The position numbers and the translations under genes are program-made. This document shows, piece after piece, positions 6,400 to 63,045 of a stretch of DNA of 64,000 nt (position 1 is its first letter; each line of letters begins with the position of its first letter). The notes under the pieces were generated by a model that ran no database searches, was not told the origin of the DNA, and worked only from the letters and a program-made list of their open reading frames with translations. The stretch is taken from positions 1 to 64,000 of the forward strand of contig CANGFT010000019.1 of NCBI GenBank assembly GCA_947453205.1, written 5' to 3'. The DNA comes from Beijerinckiaceae bacterium. Lineage in GTDB: Bacteria > Pseudomonadota > Alphaproteobacteria > Rhizobiales > Beijerinckiaceae.

Positions 6400-7041
6400 T
6401 CAGCGGAATCCGCGCACCATGCTGAAGAAGCGCGCCTGCTCGGCCGGATCGTCGCGGAAGACGCCGGTGAAGCGGGTGGTGATGGTGGAGGCGCCCTGCT
6501 TCTGCACGCCGCGCATGGACATGCACATGTGCTCCGCCTCGATCAGCACTGCGATGCCCCTGGGCTTCAGCGCGTTGTCGATCGTGTCGGTGATCTGGGC
6601 GGTCATGGTCTCCTGCGTCTGCAGGCGGCGGGCGAAGACCTCGACCACGCGGGCGAGCTTCGACAGGCCGACGACGCCTTCAGCAGGGAAATAAGCGACA
6701 TGCGCCTTGCCCACGAAGGGCACCATGTGGTGTTCGCAATGGGAGGTGAAGGGAATGTCCTTCACCAGAACCATGTCGTCATAGCCTTCCACTTCTTCGA
6801 AGATGGTGGAAAGCTGGGCCTCTGCGTCCTGCTGATAGCCCTTGAACAGCTCTTCATAGGCTTTCACGACGCGCTTGGGCGTATCAAGGAGGCCTTCACG
6901 TGCGGGATTATCGCCCGCCCAGCGCAGCAGAACCCGCACAGCGGCCTCGGCTTCTTCGCGGGTCGGCCGGACGGCCGGCGCCGGGGCGACGGAAGGACGG
7001 GTCCGGGAATTCGGGTTCAAGGTCTTAACCACAGCATCCAT
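6400..7041 (-). CDS. folE: GTP cyclohydrolase I
   Basis: First enzyme of tetrahydrofolate and pterin synthesis, converting GTP to dihydroneopterin triphosphate. The 213-residue protein has the FolE motifs: [17 protein letters not shown] with the zinc Cys and His, [18 protein letters not shown], and [17 protein letters not shown] with the second zinc Cys. The first about 25 residues are a low-complexity extension. ATG 7041 is preceded by a strong AGGAGG. It lies upstream of hisI on the same strand and is divergent from the Fe-S scaffold gene, a linkage I know from rhizobia. Confidence 0.96.
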
Positions 7042-7259
7042 GGTGGCGCCCTCCTGTTCATGTGATTGACTGTTGGTGATACGGGGCGAAGCCGAAGCCG
7101 GACCACAGGCCGGACTGCATTATTTTTTCGCCCCTCGCTTGCTGCGCATTGATGACCGGCAGGCTTTTATGGCTGGTGGTTTTGAAAGCCCCGCGTCCTC
7201 CCTATATGCTAAGCATAGATGCCGCCTGAAAGCGAACGGTTGCGAAAGATCCTGCCGAC

Positions 7260-7715
7260 ATGATGAACGACGTCTACAACAAGCGGATCCTGGAGCTGGC
7301 GGCGGAAATCCCGCGCCTTGGCCGGCTCGCGCATCCCGACGCCTCCGCCACAGCCCATTCGCGGCTCTGCGGCTCGACCGTCACGGTGGATCTGGTTCTC
7401 AAAAATGGTCAGGTGGCCGATTTCGCCCATGATGTGAAGGCCTGCGCGCTGGGCCAGGCCTCCTCCTCGATCATGGCGCGCAACATCGTGGGCTCGACGC
7501 CGGAGGAGCTTCGCGCCCTGCGCGACGACGTGCGGCGCATGCTGAAGGAGAACGCCGCGCCGCCCACCTCGGGAAAATGGGCTGACATCGCGGTTCTGGA
7601 GCCGGTGCGCGACTACAAGGCCCGCCATTCCTCCACCCTTCTGACCTTCGACGCCGTTGTGGACGCGCTGGAGAAAATAGGGGCAGACAAGGGCGCCGCC
7701 GCTGCGGCGGACTGA
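7260..7715 (+). CDS. IscU/NifU-like Fe-S cluster scaffold protein
   Basis: 151 residues of the NifU N-terminal/IscU fold. Two of the three usual cluster cysteines are present, in LCGSTV and ACALGQ. At the third position, where IscU has HCS, this protein reads RHSSTLL and has no cysteine. It may therefore bind a cluster differently or have another role. ATG 7260 is immediately followed by a second ATG. It is divergent from folE, with 218 bases between them that contain the small palindrome ATGCTAAGCAT (7207-7217). Confidence 0.82.
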   Translation: MMNDVYNKRILELAAEIPRLGRLAHPDASATAHSRLCGSTVTVDLVLKNGQVADFAHDVKACALGQASSSIMARNIVGSTPEELRALRDDVRRMLKENAAPPTSGKWADIAVLEPVRDYKARHSSTLLTFDAVVDALEKIGADKGAAAAAD

Positions 7716-7777
7716 CCCGCCGCTTGCATCGGCGGCGTGCGACCGTATAGACCGGCGTTCACAAACCGGAGGACGCC

Positions 7778-8791
7778 ATGTCGATCTTGAAGCCGCTTGC
7801 TCTGGCGGCCGCCCTGAGCGCAACATTGAACAGCGCCGCCCGCGCCGACGCGATCGAGGACTTCTATAAGGGCAAGACCATGTATGCGCTGGTGGGCGTG
7901 AGCCCCGGCGGCGAATATGATTTCCAGCTGCGCCTCGTGGCGAAGCATCTGGGGGCCTATATCCCCGGCCATCCCAACATCATCGCCCAGAACATGACCG
8001 GCGCCACCGGCATGATCATGGCGAACTATCTCTACAAGGTCGCGCCCAAGGACGGGACTTACATCGGCCTCATCCAGAACGGCCTGCCGACCTCGCAGGC
8101 CGTGGGAATGGAGGGCGTGCAGTTCGACGCGTCAAAATATAACTGGATCGGCTCCATCGCGCCGACCGTCGAGACCATGGCGGTCTGGAAGACGGCGGGC
8201 GTCACCACCATCGAACAGGCCAAGCAGATCGAAATCATTGCGGGCTGCGTGGGATCCTCCGGCATCACCCTCACTTTTCCGGTGATGCTGAACGACCTGC
8301 TCGGCACGAAATTCAAGATGGTCATGGGCTACACCGGCTCCGGCCCCCTCAACCTCGCCATGGAGCGCGGCGAGGTCTCCGCGCGCAACAATTCCTGGTC
8401 GAGCTGGAACGCCTCCAAGCCCGAATGGGTGACGAACAAGGACATCCACGTCCTCGTCTATTCAGGGCCAAAGCCGCCCGATCTCAACGGCGTCCCCTCG
8501 CTTGAAGAACTCATCAAGGATCCGGAGGACCGTCAGGTCGTGGACATCGTGACCGCCGGCAACGCCCTCGGCCACCCCTTCGCCATGCCGCCCGGCGTGC
8601 CGCCGGAGCGCGTCGCCGCGATCCGCCGGGCCTTTGCGGACATGCTGAAGGATCCAGCCTTCCGCAAGGAGGCGGAAGCGGCCAAGATCGAGATCGAACC
8701 CGTGAGCGCGGAAACGCTGGAAAAGGCCGCGCTGGCCGCCATCAACGCCTCCGACAAGGCCAAGGCCCGGGCGCGGAAATATTTCCAGTGA
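7778..8791 (+). CDS. TctC/Bug-family solute-binding protein (group A)
   Basis: A periplasmic receptor of the tripartite tricarboxylate transporter (TTT) type, 337 residues. It has a signal peptide ending near ARA-DAIEDF and the Bug landmarks GGEYD, PNIIAQNMTGATG and KFKMVMGYTGSG. Bug proteins bind carboxylates and other small organics. No TctA or TctB membrane gene lies nearby. It is closely similar to the gene at 29435-30451 (shared IQNGLPTSQAVG and GSSGITL; both end in RARKYFQ). ATG 7778 has GGAGG upstream. Confidence 0.88.
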   Translation: MSILKPLALAAALSATLNSAARADAIEDFYKGKTMYALVGVSPGGEYDFQLRLVAKHLGAYIPGHPNIIAQNMTGATGMIMANYLYKVAPKDGTYIGLIQNGLPTSQAVGMEGVQFDASKYNWIGSIAPTVETMAVWKTAGVTTIEQAKQIEIIAGCVGSSGITLTFPVMLNDLLGTKFKMVMGYTGSGPLNLAMERGEVSARNNSWSSWNASKPEWVTNKDIHVLVYSGPKPPDLNGVPSLEELIKDPEDRQVVDIVTAGNALGHPFAMPPGVPPERVAAIRRAFADMLKDPAFRKEAEAAKIEIEPVSAETLEKAALAAINASDKAKARARKYFQ

Positions 8792-10579: not shown

Positions 10580-10864
10580 TCAGGCCTGTTCGGCGTCTTC
10601 CTTGGCGGTCGCAGCCTTGTGGCGGCGGGCGCTGGCGACAAGGCCGCCCTTGCGGCCCGCATCCATGGCGAGCTGATTGTCGGCTGAAAACGACCGCTTC
10701 GCTTTCGGCACATTCGCCCCGCCCTTGCGGCCGGCGGTCGCCGCAAGATCCGGGTCGCGCGCGAAGCTGCGAGAATCACGCGGCACCGACTTGCCGCCCA
10801 GACGCGCGATCTCCCGGCGCCGTTCAGCCGACATGGAAGCAAAGCCGCGATTAGATATTGCCAT
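10580..10864 (-). CDS. KGG-repeat general stress protein
   Basis: A 94-residue basic, hydrophilic protein with GG-containing repeats (LGGKSVPRD, GRKGGANVPK, GRKGGLVAS). This matches the stress-induced KGG family related to E. coli YciG and B. subtilis GsiB. Such proteins accumulate in stationary phase or desiccation. ATG 10864 (MAISNRGF) has GGGAG well spaced upstream. The 256 bases upstream are relatively AT-rich and carry two inverted TAACGTAACG-like sites. Confidence 0.88.
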   Translation of the reverse strand: MAISNRGFASMSAERRREIARLGGKSVPRDSRSFARDPDLAATAGRKGGANVPKAKRSFSADNQLAMDAGRKGGLVASARRHKAATAKEDAEQA

Positions 10865-10897
10865 GAAGTCAACTCCCGTAAAAAGAACGCTACGGCA

Positions 10898-10984
10898 TAA
10901 CGTAACGTAAACAGCAACGATCACATTTTCAGCGCGAGATGCTTTACGCATCGGCAGCACTTCTATCGCTGACCGTTACGTTTA
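10898..10984. promoter_or_regulatory. Paired TAA(A)CGTAACG sites upstream of the stress gene
   Basis: TAACGTAACG at 10898-10907 and, in the opposite orientation, CGTTACGTTTA at 10974-10984. They lie between the divergent stress-protein and SDR genes. They could be an operator pair, but the assignment rests on the repeat alone. Confidence 0.3.
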
Positions 10985-11120
10985 GGTGTAGCATCAAAAA
11001 TATACAACCGCTAGTAGCGTCATTCAGGAATTTCGACTGTGTGGCGCCCGTGCTTGCGGGAAGGGGCTTCAACCCCTTAGGCTCGGCCAAAAGGAAGCGC
11101 GCGACACGGGGACCGGCCGC

Positions 11121-11963
11121 ATGAACGCAAACGATCTGACGGGAAAGACCTGCCTCATCACGGGCGCGGGAACGGGCCTGGCGCGGGCTATGGCTTTGGG
11201 CCTCGCGGAGGCCGGCGCATCGGTGCTGGCCGCCGACATAGACGCGGCGGGACTGGCGCAGACCGAATCTCTGGCGAAGGGCTTGGCGGGGCGCGTGATC
11301 GCCCACCAAGTCGACGTGCGCGATCAGGCCCAATGCGAAGCCGCCGTCGCAAAGGCCATCGCCGCCTTCGGCCACCTCGACATGCTCGTGAACTGCGCGG
11401 GCCTGGGGCCGGTCTATATGAAACGCAACTTCATCGAAGAGCCCCTGCGCTTCTGGGACGCGGACCCCGAACGCTGGTGGAACATGATCGCGGTCAATCT
11501 GCGCGGCCCCTTCCTGCTGGCGCGGGCGGCGGCGCCACATATGATCGCGCGCAAATGGGGCCGCATCGTCAACATCACCACCAGTTTCTCGACGATGATC
11601 CGGGGCGGCAACATGCCCTATGGCCAGACGAAATCAGGCCTCGAGGCTGGCTCGGCGAGTTGGGCGGATGACCTTGCGGGGACGGGCGTGACAGTGAACG
11701 TGCTGATCCCCGGCGGGGCCGCCGACACCGGCATGATACCGGTGGAATCCATGCCGGACCGCTCGAAGCTCGTGTCGCCGCAGGCCATGGCGGCGCCGAT
11801 CCGATATCTCGCAAGCGAGCAATCGAATGGAGTGACCGGCAAACGCTTCGTCGCCCAGTTATTCGATCCACAGAGCCCGCTCGCCGAGCCCGGCTGCGCC
11901 CCGGTGGCCTGGCCCGGCCTTGCGGCAGGCGCCTCACGCGGACTTGGCGAGGGGACGCGCTGA
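11121..11963 (+). CDS. Short-chain dehydrogenase/reductase (SDR)
   Basis: 280 residues, classical SDR. The NAD(P) glycine motif GAGTGLA is near residue 15, NCAG near 92, the catalytic serine segment NITTS, and YGQTK supplies the active Tyr and Lys. The Rossmann acidic residue AADID suggests NAD preference. The C-terminus is somewhat longer than usual. It stands alone, divergent from the KGG stress gene. The substrate is not predictable. Confidence 0.85.
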   Translation: MNANDLTGKTCLITGAGTGLARAMALGLAEAGASVLAADIDAAGLAQTESLAKGLAGRVIAHQVDVRDQAQCEAAVAKAIAAFGHLDMLVNCAGLGPVYMKRNFIEEPLRFWDADPERWWNMIAVNLRGPFLLARAAAPHMIARKWGRIVNITTSFSTMIRGGNMPYGQTKSGLEAGSASWADDLAGTGVTVNVLIPGGAADTGMIPVESMPDRSKLVSPQAMAAPIRYLASEQSNGVTGKRFVAQLFDPQSPLAEPGCAPVAWPGLAAGASRGLGEGTR

Positions 11964-27173: not shown

Positions 27174-27749
27174 ATGGATCGCGTGTCAGCAAACACACAG
27201 CTCGACCACCACGAAGACGCCGGGCATCCGGCGCACAAAAGAGACATTGGCGCCATCATCTTCGTAGCGACCGTGATCTTCTCGCTAGTGGGGATCGCCA
27301 GTCTGGCCCGCAACATCTTCGCGGCCGCCCAGCATCTGGAATCCGCGAAACGCAACGCGGAACTCGTGGCGCGCACGCTCACCGAGGTCGGCGCGAAACG
27401 TAAGGCGGGTCAATCCGGCCTTCCCAGCTGCCAAGTGAGCGAAGAAAACGGCGGCAAGCTGACCTGGGGCCCATGCTGGGACGAAATCGCCAAAATGCCC
27501 GAGATCGCCGGCCTGAAGAACGCCATGGAGGCAGGAAACGAGGTTTTCGGGCCGCCATGCGACGGCAGCGAGGAAGCCATCGGGCGCATCACCATCGAAA
27601 AGGGAACGCCCTGGTTCTCCGCAGGCAACACTGGCGTGACCTATGCGGCCAGCGACAGTGAAGACGCCATCGCCACCGAAACGCCGCTGCGCATTCAGGT
27701 CTGCAATCGCTGGGGCGAGGCCGTTAAAGTCCAGGAGATCAAGTTTTGA
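27174..27749 (+). CDS. Predicted single-pass membrane partner of the tandem-sensor channel (copy A)
   Basis: 191 residues, family not recognised. A short N-terminal cytoplasmic tail is followed by one transmembrane helix (about 25-47), a helical neck (QHLESAKRNAELVARTL) and a globular outer domain with four cysteines at 86, 101, 129 and 177, likely two disulfides. The stop codon overlaps the TTG start of the channel gene in TTGA, so translation is coupled. Copy B at 50599-51219 keeps all four Cys and ends almost identically (NRWGE-VKVQEIKF). An accessory subunit of the channel is inferred from this strict linkage. The 129 bases upstream are unusually AT-rich. Confidence 0.75.
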   Translation: MDRVSANTQLDHHEDAGHPAHKRDIGAIIFVATVIFSLVGIASLARNIFAAAQHLESAKRNAELVARTLTEVGAKRKAGQSGLPSCQVSEENGGKLTWGPCWDEIAKMPEIAGLKNAMEAGNEVFGPPCDGSEEAIGRITIEKGTPWFSAGNTGVTYAASDSEDAIATETPLRIQVCNRWGEAVKVQEIKF

Positions 27750-29371
27750 GCGAGACCTCCTCGATCGCAAGAAATGAAACGCCGCCCGAAGCGCCGCCGC
27801 CGAGCCTCGGTCGGCGGCTTTATTCGTTTCTGCTGGACCCCGATGTCGAAGGAAACCTGCAGAAGCCGATCGAGCATTTCGTCGCCACGCTCATTCTTCT
27901 GAACGTCGGCTCGATGCTGATCGAGCAGATCCCCGAGATCTATGAACCCTACAAAAAATGGTTCCATTTCTTCGACACATTCTCGATCATCATCTTCACG
28001 ATCGAATATGTCGTGAGGTTTACGCTCTCGCCCTATCAGAAAGATCTGGCGGGCAAGCGTTTCCCGCGCTTCTCCTATGCGATCTCGCCCTTCGCGGTGA
28101 TCGACCTCCTCTCGATTCTGCCTTTCTATCTCTCCTCTTTCATCGCGCTTGATCTTCGCGTCCTTCGTATTCTGCGTCTGCTGCGACTGCTGAAACTGTT
28201 CCGCGTGCTGATTCCCGCCTGGAAGGAATTCCGCCAACTCAACAAGGGGCGCACCTTCCGTCAGCATGTGCACGCCATCGTCTGGCCATCGCGCTTTGGC
28301 GGCCAGATGCATGACTTCTTCGAACTCTTCATCATTGGCTGGGTGGTCATCTCAGTCATCTCGGTGCTTCTGGAGACCGTTGAGGCAGCGCATTACATTC
28401 TGGCCATGGAGTTTGCGGTTCTCGACTCGATCGCGGTCGCGGTGTTCACGACCGAATATCTGATGCGCATGTATTCCTGCGTCGAGGATCCGAAATTCAA
28501 GCAAGCCTATGCCGGGCGCATCCGCTACGGCCTGACGCCTGGCGCCATCATCGATGCGCTGGCGGTCATGCCCTTCTTCCTCGAAGCGCTGCTACATCAT
28601 CTCTTCGATCTCCGCTTCCTGCGAATTTTCCGCATGTTGCGCCTGCTGAAGCTGACCCGCTTCAGCGACGCGACCAAGCTTGTTTGGGACGGCATCAAGC
28701 GCGAAGCTGGCACCATCGGCGCTTCGTTCTTCGTGCTGTTGCTCGTCATCATCCTGTGCGGCAGCGTTGGTTATCTGCTTGAGCATGCGGCCCAGCCAGA
28801 TAAATTCGAGAGCATACCGGGCGCGATCTACTGGTCCGTCATCACGCTCTCGAGCGTGGGCTATGGCGACATATCGCCGGTGACCCCGGTCGGCCGCTTC
28901 ATCACCTCGCTGATGGCGCTCTTGGGCATCGCCCTCGTCGCCATTCCCTCCGGCATTCTGTCCGCCGCCTTCACCGATCAGCTTCGCATCGAGCGCGAAA
29001 ACATCGGCGCCAAGATCGCCGCGATGATGGACGACGATAATATCGACAACGATGAAAAAGCGCTGCTTGAGGCGGACGCCAAGCGCCTCCACATTTCGGA
29101 AGCCGAACTCGCGGCCATGATCAAGGCCGCGCGGCGGGCCCGCCTTATGGACAAGGACGTCAAGACGGAGTTCAACCTGAACGCCGCCAAGGAAGACCCT
29201 GAACTCGCATTCGAACAGTTCCGCGGCCTCGTCAGTCAGATGAAGCAACTCGTCTATGTCACCGGCGAGGAGATGGGCGACGCCATCAACACGGCAGGCG
29301 ACGCCTCGGGACTTGAGAAATCGCTTTACGAACAGATCGCCCAGCAAAAAGCGGCGCGCAAACCAGCGTGA
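27746..29371 (+). CDS. Ion channel with two voltage-sensor modules and one K+-type pore (copy A)
   Basis: 541 residues. Residues about 44-156 form a first S1-S4 module whose S4 has basic residues at 138, 141, 144, 147, 150 and 153. Residues about 190-308 form a second one with the same spacing (290, 293, 296, 299, 302, 305). Only the second is followed by S5, pore loop and S6 (322-410), with filter TLSSVGYGD at 367-375. The pore resembles MlotiK1-type bacterial channels but no cyclic-nucleotide domain follows; instead there is a ~130-residue helical tail (DNIDNDEKALLEADAKR). TTG start, AGGAG upstream. Potassium selectivity follows from the filter; the doubled sensor is what I see and is unusual. 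Confidence 0.85.
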   Translation: MSETSSIARNETPPEAPPPSLGRRLYSFLLDPDVEGNLQKPIEHFVATLILLNVGSMLIEQIPEIYEPYKKWFHFFDTFSIIIFTIEYVVRFTLSPYQKDLAGKRFPRFSYAISPFAVIDLLSILPFYLSSFIALDLRVLRILRLLRLLKLFRVLIPAWKEFRQLNKGRTFRQHVHAIVWPSRFGGQMHDFFELFIIGWVVISVISVLLETVEAAHYILAMEFAVLDSIAVAVFTTEYLMRMYSCVEDPKFKQAYAGRIRYGLTPGAIIDALAVMPFFLEALLHHLFDLRFLRIFRMLRLLKLTRFSDATKLVWDGIKREAGTIGASFFVLLLVIILCGSVGYLLEHAAQPDKFESIPGAIYWSVITLSSVGYGDISPVTPVGRFITSLMALLGIALVAIPSGILSAAFTDQLRIERENIGAKIAAMMDDDNIDNDEKALLEADAKRLHISEAELAAMIKAARRARLMDKDVKTEFNLNAAKEDPELAFEQFRGLVSQMKQLVYVTGEEMGDAINTAGDASGLEKSLYEQIAQQKAARKPA

Positions 29372-60849: not shown

Positions 60850-63045
60850 ATGGTTAAGTCGATCAAGGGTACGGCCGTTCAGGACACCATCCTTGGCACT
60901 CAGGATGTTGACTTTATCGAAGCCGGAGACGGGTCGGACCTGATTTACGGTTTTCTCCGCGCCGATACGATCGACGGCGGGAACGGCTATGACACGCTCT
61001 TCATCACCGGCACATCCGTCGATCTTAATGTGGCGACGAACGCGCAGTTGCTGAGCGTCGAAGAGGTCTCCGCAAAACTTGCCCTCGGTGGCGTCACCAT
61101 CAATCTGGCGAGCCAGATTGAAGGCTTCACGCTCATTGGCAGCGCCTTCAGCGACATCCTGACGGGCGGTTCGGGAACCAACAACATCGACGCAAGCGAC
61201 GGCGACGACACGATCAAGGGCTTTGGCGGATCGGATACGGTCAACGGCGGGGCAGGCGCCGATACGCTCGTGCTGACTGCAGACATCCTTGGCGCCAATG
61301 ATATTCAGATATCCGGCATTGAAAATGTCATCGCCTCCGGCGCAACCAAAGGCCTCACCATCAACCTTGGCCGGCAGTCTGAGCGATTTTATCTCATCGG
61401 CAGCGCATTTGGCGATGACATAACGGGCGGGTCCGGCGCAGATGTCATCAACACCGGCGATGGCGACGACAAGATTCAGGGATACCTTGGAAATGATTAC
61501 ATCAATGGCGGCAATGGCTCCGACACCCTCTATCTGCTCCTGACCTCGCTCAATCTGAACGGGGCGCTGGATGTTCAGTTGACGAATGTTGAAACCATCT
61601 CCGCCGCCAAGGCAGTCCTTGGGGTGGTGATCGATCTGTCCAGCCAAACCGAAGGCTTCACCATCCTCGGCAGCGATCAAAGCGATTATATCAAAGGGGG
61701 CGCAGGCGCCGACATTTTCATCGGCAGTTCTGGCATGGACACGGTGGACGGGGGTTTTGGCGAGGACCGGCTCGTTCTGACCTCAGACCTCAACAACATC
61801 ACGAATGCGCAACTGGTGAGCATCGAAACCATCTCGGCGGCGGACGCCGTCAGAGGGCTCACCATCAATCTCGTCGCGCAGAATGAACGGATCAACGTCA
61901 TCGGAAGCGCGTTTTCCGATACGGTGACCGGTGGCGTTGGCCTCGACATCATTTCATCGGGCGGTGGCGATGACGTCATCAAGGGCTTCAGCAGCGCGGA
62001 TACGATTGATGGTGGCGCAGGGTTCGATACGCTGGTCCTTACGGTGACCTCGACAAACCTCAACAGCGCGACGGACAGTCAACTGACCAATGTCGAAGCG
62101 ATCTCCGCGATTGGTTCGACCCTTGGCGTCAACATCAGTCTCACAGCCCAGACAGAGGGCTTCAAACTCACCGGAAGCGCCTATTCGGATACGCTGAGAG
62201 GCGGGGCGGGCGACGATCAGTTCTATGGTTTCAACGGCAGCGACATCGTCGATGGCGGCAAAGGAGCCGATACGCTCCTCCTCCAGGCGACCTCAGCCAA
62301 CCTCAACGGTTCTTCGGACGCTCAGTTGCTCAATTTGGAGACCATCTCCGCCTTCAACGCGACATCTGGCGTCACCATAGCCCTCTACAACCAGTCGGAA
62401 GGCTTCAATATCGAGGGAAGCAATTTTGCGGATCAGTTGAGCGGATCTTCGCAATCAGACACCTTCATCGGCTTTAAGGGAGCCGATACGATCGATGGCG
62501 GCGGCGGCGTGGACATCGTCAAAATCGACGGGACGTCGCTTAACCTGAACAATGCAAGCAACGCTCAACTCGTCAATGTCGAAAAAATCTCTGCGGCAAA
62601 CGCCTCGACTGGCGTCATCATCGACCTGTCGAAGCAGACCGAACGGATTGACATTGTCGGCAGCGGTTATGGCGATACGCTCATTGGCGGCCCGGGCGCC
62701 AACTATCTGACTGGCGGCGCGGGAGCGGACCATTTCGTTTTCAAAGGCCCCTTAGGCGTCACAAACATCGATACGCTGGTCGACTTCACGCCAAACATTG
62801 ACGTGCTGGACTTCAGCCAGACGAGTTTCGTCAGTCTGGGCGTCGTGGGCCCGCTCGGGGCATCGGCTTTCTGGTCGTCAAGCAGCGATGCGTCCGCGCA
62901 TGATGGCGATGATCGGCTTGTTTACAACACCGCGACCGGCGCACTCTATTATGACGCCGACGGGATAGGTGGGGCGGCGGCAGTCCAGATCGCCAGATTC
63001 AGCAGCCTTCCAGGACTTTCGGCGACGGATTTCTTCATCGTCTGA
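60850..63045 (+). CDS. RTX-like repeat protein with seven composite repeats
   Basis: 731 residues, acidic, Gly/Asp/Asn-rich, no cysteine and no N-terminal signal, consistent with type I secretion. Seven repeats start near residues 41, 131, 218, 299, 386, 467 and 548 (period 81-90). Each has a calcium-type GG-x-G-x-D stretch (IDGGNGYDTL) followed by a conserved insert: NLN, AQL-NVE-ISA, a GVTINL-like strand and QTEGF-I-GSA. The C-terminus (GGAGADHFVFKG, DTLVDFTPNIDVLDFSQ, DFFIV) matches the terminal region of RTX proteases and adhesins. No catalytic domain is seen. ATG 60850 has GGGAGGAG upstream. Type I exporter genes are not in the window. Confidence 0.85.
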   Translation: MVKSIKGTAVQDTILGTQDVDFIEAGDGSDLIYGFLRADTIDGGNGYDTLFITGTSVDLNVATNAQLLSVEEVSAKLALGGVTINLASQIEGFTLIGSAFSDILTGGSGTNNIDASDGDDTIKGFGGSDTVNGGAGADTLVLTADILGANDIQISGIENVIASGATKGLTINLGRQSERFYLIGSAFGDDITGGSGADVINTGDGDDKIQGYLGNDYINGGNGSDTLYLLLTSLNLNGALDVQLTNVETISAAKAVLGVVIDLSSQTEGFTILGSDQSDYIKGGAGADIFIGSSGMDTVDGGFGEDRLVLTSDLNNITNAQLVSIETISAADAVRGLTINLVAQNERINVIGSAFSDTVTGGVGLDIISSGGGDDVIKGFSSADTIDGGAGFDTLVLTVTSTNLNSATDSQLTNVEAISAIGSTLGVNISLTAQTEGFKLTGSAYSDTLRGGAGDDQFYGFNGSDIVDGGKGADTLLLQATSANLNGSSDAQLLNLETISAFNATSGVTIALYNQSEGFNIEGSNFADQLSGSSQSDTFIGFKGADTIDGGGGVDIVKIDGTSLNLNNASNAQLVNVEKISAANASTGVIIDLSKQTERIDIVGSGYGDTLIGGPGANYLTGGAGADHFVFKGPLGVTNIDTLVDFTPNIDVLDFSQTSFVSLGVVGPLGASAFWSSSSDASAHDGDDRLVYNTATGALYYDADGIGGAAAVQIARFSSLPGLSATDFFIV

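Follow-up and report, generated by a model that had tools for sequence, protein, structure and literature searches.

A gene of a freshwater Beijerinckiaceae bacterium (assembly GCA_947453205.1, contig CANGFT010000019.1) encodes a K+ channel in which two complete S1–S4 voltage sensors, here called VSD1 and VSD2, stand in front of a single pore. As far as searched, this tandem-sensor single-pore architecture is real, conserved and undescribed within the open-access literature covered. The gene (copy A) lies in the window analysed here, the first 64,000 nucleotides of the contig, and had been singled out in an original prediction, made from the letters alone, as coding for a K+ pore with a pair of voltage sensors; this reading is now backed by structure prediction, by conservation across 82 homologues and by purifying selection on VSD1. 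Three things lay outside that prediction: the wider family, the three such genes of the genome, two of them in the window, and the conserved gene directly upstream. The prediction's accompanying claim that there was no characterised example held within the same bounds, since no description of tandem sensors on a single pore was found in the open-access literature, including PMC8346283 and PMC10377628.

Two Voltage Sensors and One Pore in a Single Chain

The features are collected in Table 1. The TTG start of copy A and the stop codon of the gene before it overlap. The paralogue on the other strand (copy B) supports this start with an ATG at the corresponding junction. Pfam Ion_trans matches the copy A protein as two stretches and Ion_trans_2 as one. 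In the genome profile search the VSD1 stretch alone scored 61.1 bits against Ion_trans (cut-off 25), and VSD1 aligned to VSD2 with a score of 163, where shuffles gave 31 ± 5 and the highest of 500 reached 55. The S4 of VSD1, LRVLRILRLLRLLKLFR, carries basic residues at 138/141/144/147/150/153 and that of VSD2, LRFLRIFRMLRLLKLTR, at 290/293/296/299/302/305; among 20,000 shuffles of the composition, such a ladder of six arose in 5, and the protein itself contains exactly two. Both S1–S4 modules of the original prediction, with S4 segments at 138–153 and 290–305, are thereby confirmed, as is its single S5–pore–S6, represented by the one Ion_trans_2 match and the filter SVGYGD. The two channel genes of the window have G+C contents of 0.579 and 0.571, below the window mean of 0.623.

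Table 1. Location of the features discussed, in window coordinates unless a locus is named; residues are those of copy A.
Feature	Position	Strand	Remarks
Partner gene of copy A, 191 aa	27174..27749	+	N-terminal TM helix, stalk, four-cysteine domain; stop overlaps channel start
Tandem-VSD K+ channel copy A, 541 aa	27746..29371	+	Uninterrupted ORF, TTG start
VSD1, residues 39-165 (S1 39-60, S2 70-93, S3 115-132, S4 137-165)	27860..28240	+	Helices from AlphaFold2 model
S4 of VSD1, residues 137-153	28154..28204	+	Six basic residues; from sequence
VSD2, residues 186-304	28301..28657	+	AlphaFold2 helices
S4 of VSD2, residues 289-305	28610..28660	+	Six basic residues; from sequence
S4-S5 linker helix, residues 308-319	28667..28702	+	AlphaFold2 model
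Pore (S5, pore helix, filter, S6), residues 321-412	28706..28981	+	Ion_trans_2 at 331-409; helices 321-346, 357-369, 381-430
K+ selectivity filter SVGYGD, residues 370-375	28853..28870	+	Sole K+ filter in the protein
Cytosolic helical C-terminal region, residues 413-541	28982..29368	+	Helices in AlphaFold2 model
Tandem-VSD channel copy B, 533 aa	48998..50599	-	75% identical to copy A; ORF and sequence comparison
Partner gene of copy B, mechanical ORF 220 aa	50599..51261	-	Second partner match in source genome
L058 pair of 6TM genes (six1, six2)	6671-7582 and 7551-8540		Altered filters; downstream of tandem channel
L058 BacNaV-like gene	10726-11556		LESW filter; best PDB match 5hvx_A (4.7e-73), a solved bacterial sodium channel

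The structure of the monomer was predicted with AlphaFold2 from the alignment of 82 sequences (mean pLDDT 82.1, pTM 0.69), and the model shows four helices in each VSD followed by an S4–S5 linker helix, S5, a pore helix and S6, with pLDDT below 50 at residues 1–13 and 371–373; a run on copy A without an alignment reached a pLDDT of 46. The original prediction had hinged on the first 160 residues forming four helices, and in this model they do so, at the positions listed for VSD1. The charges of the loops agree with the helices, in that K+R-rich loops alternate with K+R-free ones in a pattern that fits ten TM helices with both termini inside, and the ten-residue P loop contains one lysine. The 50 matches listed by Foldseek were KCNQ and other Kv channels, with a whole-chain TM by query of at most 0.33, and in view of these low values against solved channels the packing of VSD1 in the model is provisional. 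In a PDB sequence search the best listed matches, KCNQ5 (1.5e-24) and Kv4, spanned residues 180–413, and the 60 listed of 218 matches had one matched stretch each, none of them spanning VSD1 plus VSD2. The C-terminal region reached Pfam TerB at E ≤ 0.001 in one of the 82 homologues.

Conservation of Both Sensors

The alignment of 82 tandem-channel proteins, numbered here after copy A, allowed the two sensors to be compared residue by residue. In VSD1, F84, E87, D120, R144, R147, K150 and R153 are identical in all 82, and the same holds in VSD2 for F234, E237, D270, R290, R293, R296, R299 and K302. R138 and R141 are conserved in 79/82, and R305 in 77/82, with Lys in the remaining five. Six basic residues are found between positions 136 and 155 of the first S4 in 79 homologues (five in the other 3), and six in the second S4 of every homologue. 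The filter pattern TL[ASTG]SVG[YF]GD is likewise present in 82/82. Mean column entropy amounts to 1.08 for VSD1 and 0.95 for VSD2, as against 1.77–2.23 for the C-terminal tail.

VSD1 is under purifying selection: its dN/dS was 0.018–0.181 in 8 of 10 pairs, near the values for VSD2, while of the remaining pairs one was saturated and one, with a dS of 0.09, gave 0.405 for VSD1 and 0.49 for VSD2.

Occurrence among Bacteria

Ion_trans matches four genes of the source genome, namely three tandem channels and one ordinary 6TM channel (contig C10); the third tandem copy, of 548 residues on contig C4, is 42% identical. The two partner-plus-channel units of the window (27174–51261) face opposite ways some 20 kb from each other, amid catabolic-looking genes and NMT1/TctC-like binding proteins. 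Elsewhere in the window, at 60850–63045, a 731-residue protein with many GGxGxD-like repeats looks RTX-like by eye.

The taxonomic spread, which the original prediction had left to be mapped, was followed by a scan of species genomes, and the family was found to span Betaproteobacteria and some Alphaproteobacteria. At least 591 stretches matched, 497 of them encoding relatives, of which the best 80 were retained; these loci are not independent. A full-length tandem ORF is present in all 80, and by their titles 72 are from Betaproteobacteria, mostly lake or reservoir MAGs, and 8 from Beijerinckiaceae or Rhizobiales. Two loci (L037, L090) are titled Bordetella parapertussis, and both are MAGs with tandem channels like those of the other betaproteobacterial MAGs, so that the titles may be wrong.

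The distribution is patchy. Full-length tandem proteins occur in 5 of 41 near genomes, the source included (G000, G005, G016, G018, G019), and in a series of larger draws, which overlap one another, the tandem channel was found in 1/385 genomes of the class (at E ≤ 1e-50), in 2/398 of the phylum, in 3/399 of the order to which G766 belongs (with one further match, to a single-VSD gene), in 5/299 of the family of G766, all within one of 25 genera, and in 9/399 of the family that includes Limnohabitans sp. Rim11 (with three further matches, to single-VSD or broken genes). A plasmid of Gemmobacter aquarius encodes a tandem protein that is more distant and carries no annotation beyond “ion transporter” (WP_159082572.1; 38% identity over residues 17–414); the first S4 of this protein, read by eye, is poorer in charges. 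It was the only tandem-like match in the plasmid and phage collections, where no record covered 80% of the query.

These occurrences also bear on the most prosaic explanation, that the double sensor is an artefact of a frameshift, a misassembly or a recent, decaying duplication. The window does come from an assembly of 109 contigs, but the ORF is uninterrupted, the layout is the same in 80/80 best loci and recurs in genomes assembled as one contig, G766 and G1096 among them, and VSD1 is old and under purifying selection; independent assemblies refute this explanation, which can be set aside with near certainty.

Origin of the First Sensor

A midpoint-rooted tree was computed from 25 VSD1, 25 VSD2 and 32 single VSDs over 141 columns. 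All VSD1 sequences formed one clade, apart from the 32 single VSDs sampled, with a support of 100/100. VSD2 grouped with the single-VSD family that has a similar pore and tail (L164, L154, L143, L138), and two single-VSD rows, L142 and L163, nested among the VSD2 rows, which suggests that VSD1 may have been lost in places. The simplest reading of the tree would be one old acquisition of VSD1 followed by later losses, although the rooting and the 141 columns allow other orders. The separate placement of VSD1 and VSD2 in the tree led us to reject the idea that VSD1 was recently copied from VSD2 within the gene. Near relatives with a single VSD, whose pore and tail are of the same type (L138, L143, L154, L164 and others), indicate that VSD1 is dispensable for a working channel.

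The Upstream Partner Gene

The small gene upstream of copy A has a counterpart at nearly every tandem locus. It was found directly upstream in 74 of the 77 testable loci (74/80 of the best scan loci), 73 of them by the position rule and one, L036, with a mechanical channel start that extends into the partner; the untestable ones (L057, L090, L092) each begin less than 70 nt from a contig end. The three exceptions, L028, L046 and L096, are second tandem copies, and the companion copies in the same genomes (L026, L102 and L089) have the partner. The four cysteines of the partner are invariant in 74/74, and the domain that they mark would be periplasmic. The true start of the copy B partner may lie later than that of its mechanical ORF.

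Beyond the best 80, the partner also stands upstream of the tandem genes L136, L140, L141, L144–L146 and L155–L161; that of L158 is split by a stop. No partner adjoins the distant tandem copies on contig C4 of the source genome and at L015, nor the second copies L018 and L166–L168. Seven single-VSD relatives (L138, L142, L143, L147, L154, L164, L169) are without the partner. Immediately upstream of a further one, L163, one profile gave a weak partner-like match (E 5e-6) that was not found with the other profile. Among 55 genomes, the partner was present in 22/22 with an intact tandem channel, always adjoining the tandem gene, and in 1/33 without, where the profile was partly built from genomes later counted as positive and the 33 negative genomes were hand-picked rather than random. 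The one partner-positive genome without an intact tandem channel is G1616, in which channel and partner (L165) are both interrupted.

Small single-TM accessory subunits, of the KCNE type and others, go with animal channels, and the putative partner resembles the KCNE type in being a small single-TM protein tied to one channel type. It differs in its four invariant cysteines, and no sequence relation was found: in a Pfam scan of 37 members (0.1 search) no family matched more than 2/37 and none was KCNE, and a PDB search gave no match below E 0.07. One pairing of this type is that of KCNE1 with Kv7.1 (PMC2275793). A pilin or type II secretion subunit was considered and rejected, as T2SSM appeared only at E 0.1 in one sequence and the 37-member scan gave no support. 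A search with PADLOC returned a weak match of the channel's C-terminal region (E 0.011) and none of the partner, and hence no link to defence.

Adjacency and co-occurrence suggest that the partner is an accessory subunit. The strict co-occurrence of partner and tandem channel could also be taken to mean that VSD1 is a real four-helix bundle that serves only as a platform on which the partner, adjacent subunits or some other membrane protein dock or assemble, with its charges kept for folding and no part in gating. VSD1 has no S4–S5 linker to the pore, and single-VSD relatives manage without it, both of which would fit such a platform; however, the invariance of the S4 ladder and of F/E/D in 82/82 exceeds what folding by itself would be expected to need, and L163 has its weak partner-like neighbour without any VSD1. 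We regard a mere platform as unlikely, though as an alternative to be taken seriously, and favour a sensor that takes part in gating.

Neighbouring Ion Channel Genes in Burkholderiales

At 28 of the 80 loci, two 6TM genes on the same strand (six1 and six2) follow directly downstream of the tandem channel; two of these loci are cut by contig ends, and at L104 six1 is in fragments. Their filters are altered, to G[YFW]GN in six1 and GWGN in six2, in tallies that also include tandem genes with GYGD. The position and filters of the pair raise the question of whether the tandem subunit co-assembles with six1/six2 where these are present, so that the complex would have fewer VSD1 modules. Against this, most loci lack the pair even where the downstream sequence extends to 2,200 nt or more (26/64 have it), and the source genome, whose Ion_trans genes are accounted for above, has no six1/six2. 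Such mixed assembly is therefore improbable, and a complex built from tandem subunits is retained as the working model.

At L058 a histidine kinase, a response regulator, a Kup-type K+ transporter, the partner and the tandem channel are followed by six1/six2 and a DUF4337 gene, then by a Kv-like gene in reverse orientation, one that is BacNaV-like and the beginning of another tandem gene. Six of the 80 loci (L048, L049, L058, L064, L091, L101) have a BacNaV-like gene with an LESW filter close to the tandem channel; nothing comparable is present in the source genome. Directly upstream of the distant tandem copy at L015 (19–1257), a gene was read by eye as an MscS-type channel with a cyclic-nucleotide-binding-like tail.

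Comparison with Known Channels

The marks of Kv-like channels include an S1–S4 module with an every-third basic S4 and the charge-transfer residues F/E/D, which copy A has twice, and an S5–pore–S6 with a TxGYG-type filter, which it has once; the rule of one VSD per pore repeat is broken. Its VSD2, S4–S5 linker, S5–pore–S6 and K+ filter are like those of the one-repeat Kv channels (KCNQ, Kv4, bacterial KvAP type), from which it differs by an extra complete S1–S4 in front. It falls outside NCBIfam K_channel_Meth (hyperpolarization-activated K+ channel), scoring 63.8 bits against a curated cut-off of 300.

Like Hv1 and other stand-alone VSD proteins, VSD1 is a VSD without an S4–S5 linker to a pore of its own, but it is fused to a K+ channel. 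Since isolated VSDs, such as Hv1, can conduct protons, VSD1 might be thought of as an independent proton (Hv1-like) or gating-pore pathway attached to the channel. The S4 motif of Hv1, RxWRxxRxxN, occurs in 0/82 VSD1 sequences, and the conserved mid-S1 Asp is absent as well, position 53 being Asn in 82/82, which makes such a pathway very improbable.

Two voltage sensors in one chain are described for TPC (PMC4879148) and for tandem Kv-like channels (PMC7576140). These comprise two 6TM repeats and two pore repeats per chain, whereas copy A has one Ion_trans_2 stretch, one filter and hence only one pore. PMC7576140 also describes the fungal TOK channels, in which a 6TM and a 2TM unit are fused in one chain. 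TOK shares with the tandem channel the fusion of unequal modules, but it doubles the pore where the tandem channel doubles the sensor.

A Probable Channel with Eight Sensors

The anatomy of the chain suggests how the channel might work. Each subunit would have ten TM helices, made up of VSD1, a cytosolic linker, a Kv-like six-TM unit and a helical cytosolic tail. With one pore repeat per chain, four subunits would form one K+ pore, as they do in other Kv channels of the one-repeat type, and the complex would carry eight sensors. VSD2, being joined to the pore by the S4–S5 linker, would be the main driver of the gate. VSD1, which has retained a full set of gating charges and the charge-transfer residues, most likely moves with voltage and would act allosterically on VSD2 or the pore, which would shift or steepen the opening curve. 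The partner would bind the channel as a dedicated accessory subunit, the four-cysteine domain lying on the outer face, and the whole may serve to set or reset the membrane potential. As a whole, this explanation, of an eight-sensor tetrameric K+ channel gated by VSD2, modulated by VSD1 and accompanied by the partner, is drawn from sequence and predicted structure and is, in our judgement, probably right, though well short of assured.

A wider and decidedly tentative idea, which we would sooner expect to fail than to hold, is that the eight-sensor tandem channel and its accessory subunit belong to a dedicated electrical-signalling set of some freshwater bacteria, to which some Burkholderiales would add the 6TM pair, the Kv-like channel and BacNaV; such cells might start and terminate regulated spikes of membrane potential, the second sensor determining at what threshold, or how steeply, the K+ channel resets the potential.

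If the partner does bind, we know of no earlier dedicated accessory subunit for a voltage-gated K+ channel of bacteria. The effects of sensor number and of extra gating charge are usually studied with engineered concatemers. The tandem family offers a natural experiment on the same matter, with eight predicted sensors per pore and single-sensor relatives (L138, L143, L154, L164) for comparison, and its hosts with cultures or complete genomes include Limnohabitans sp. Rim11 (L053) and Gemmobacter aquarius (WP_159082572.1).
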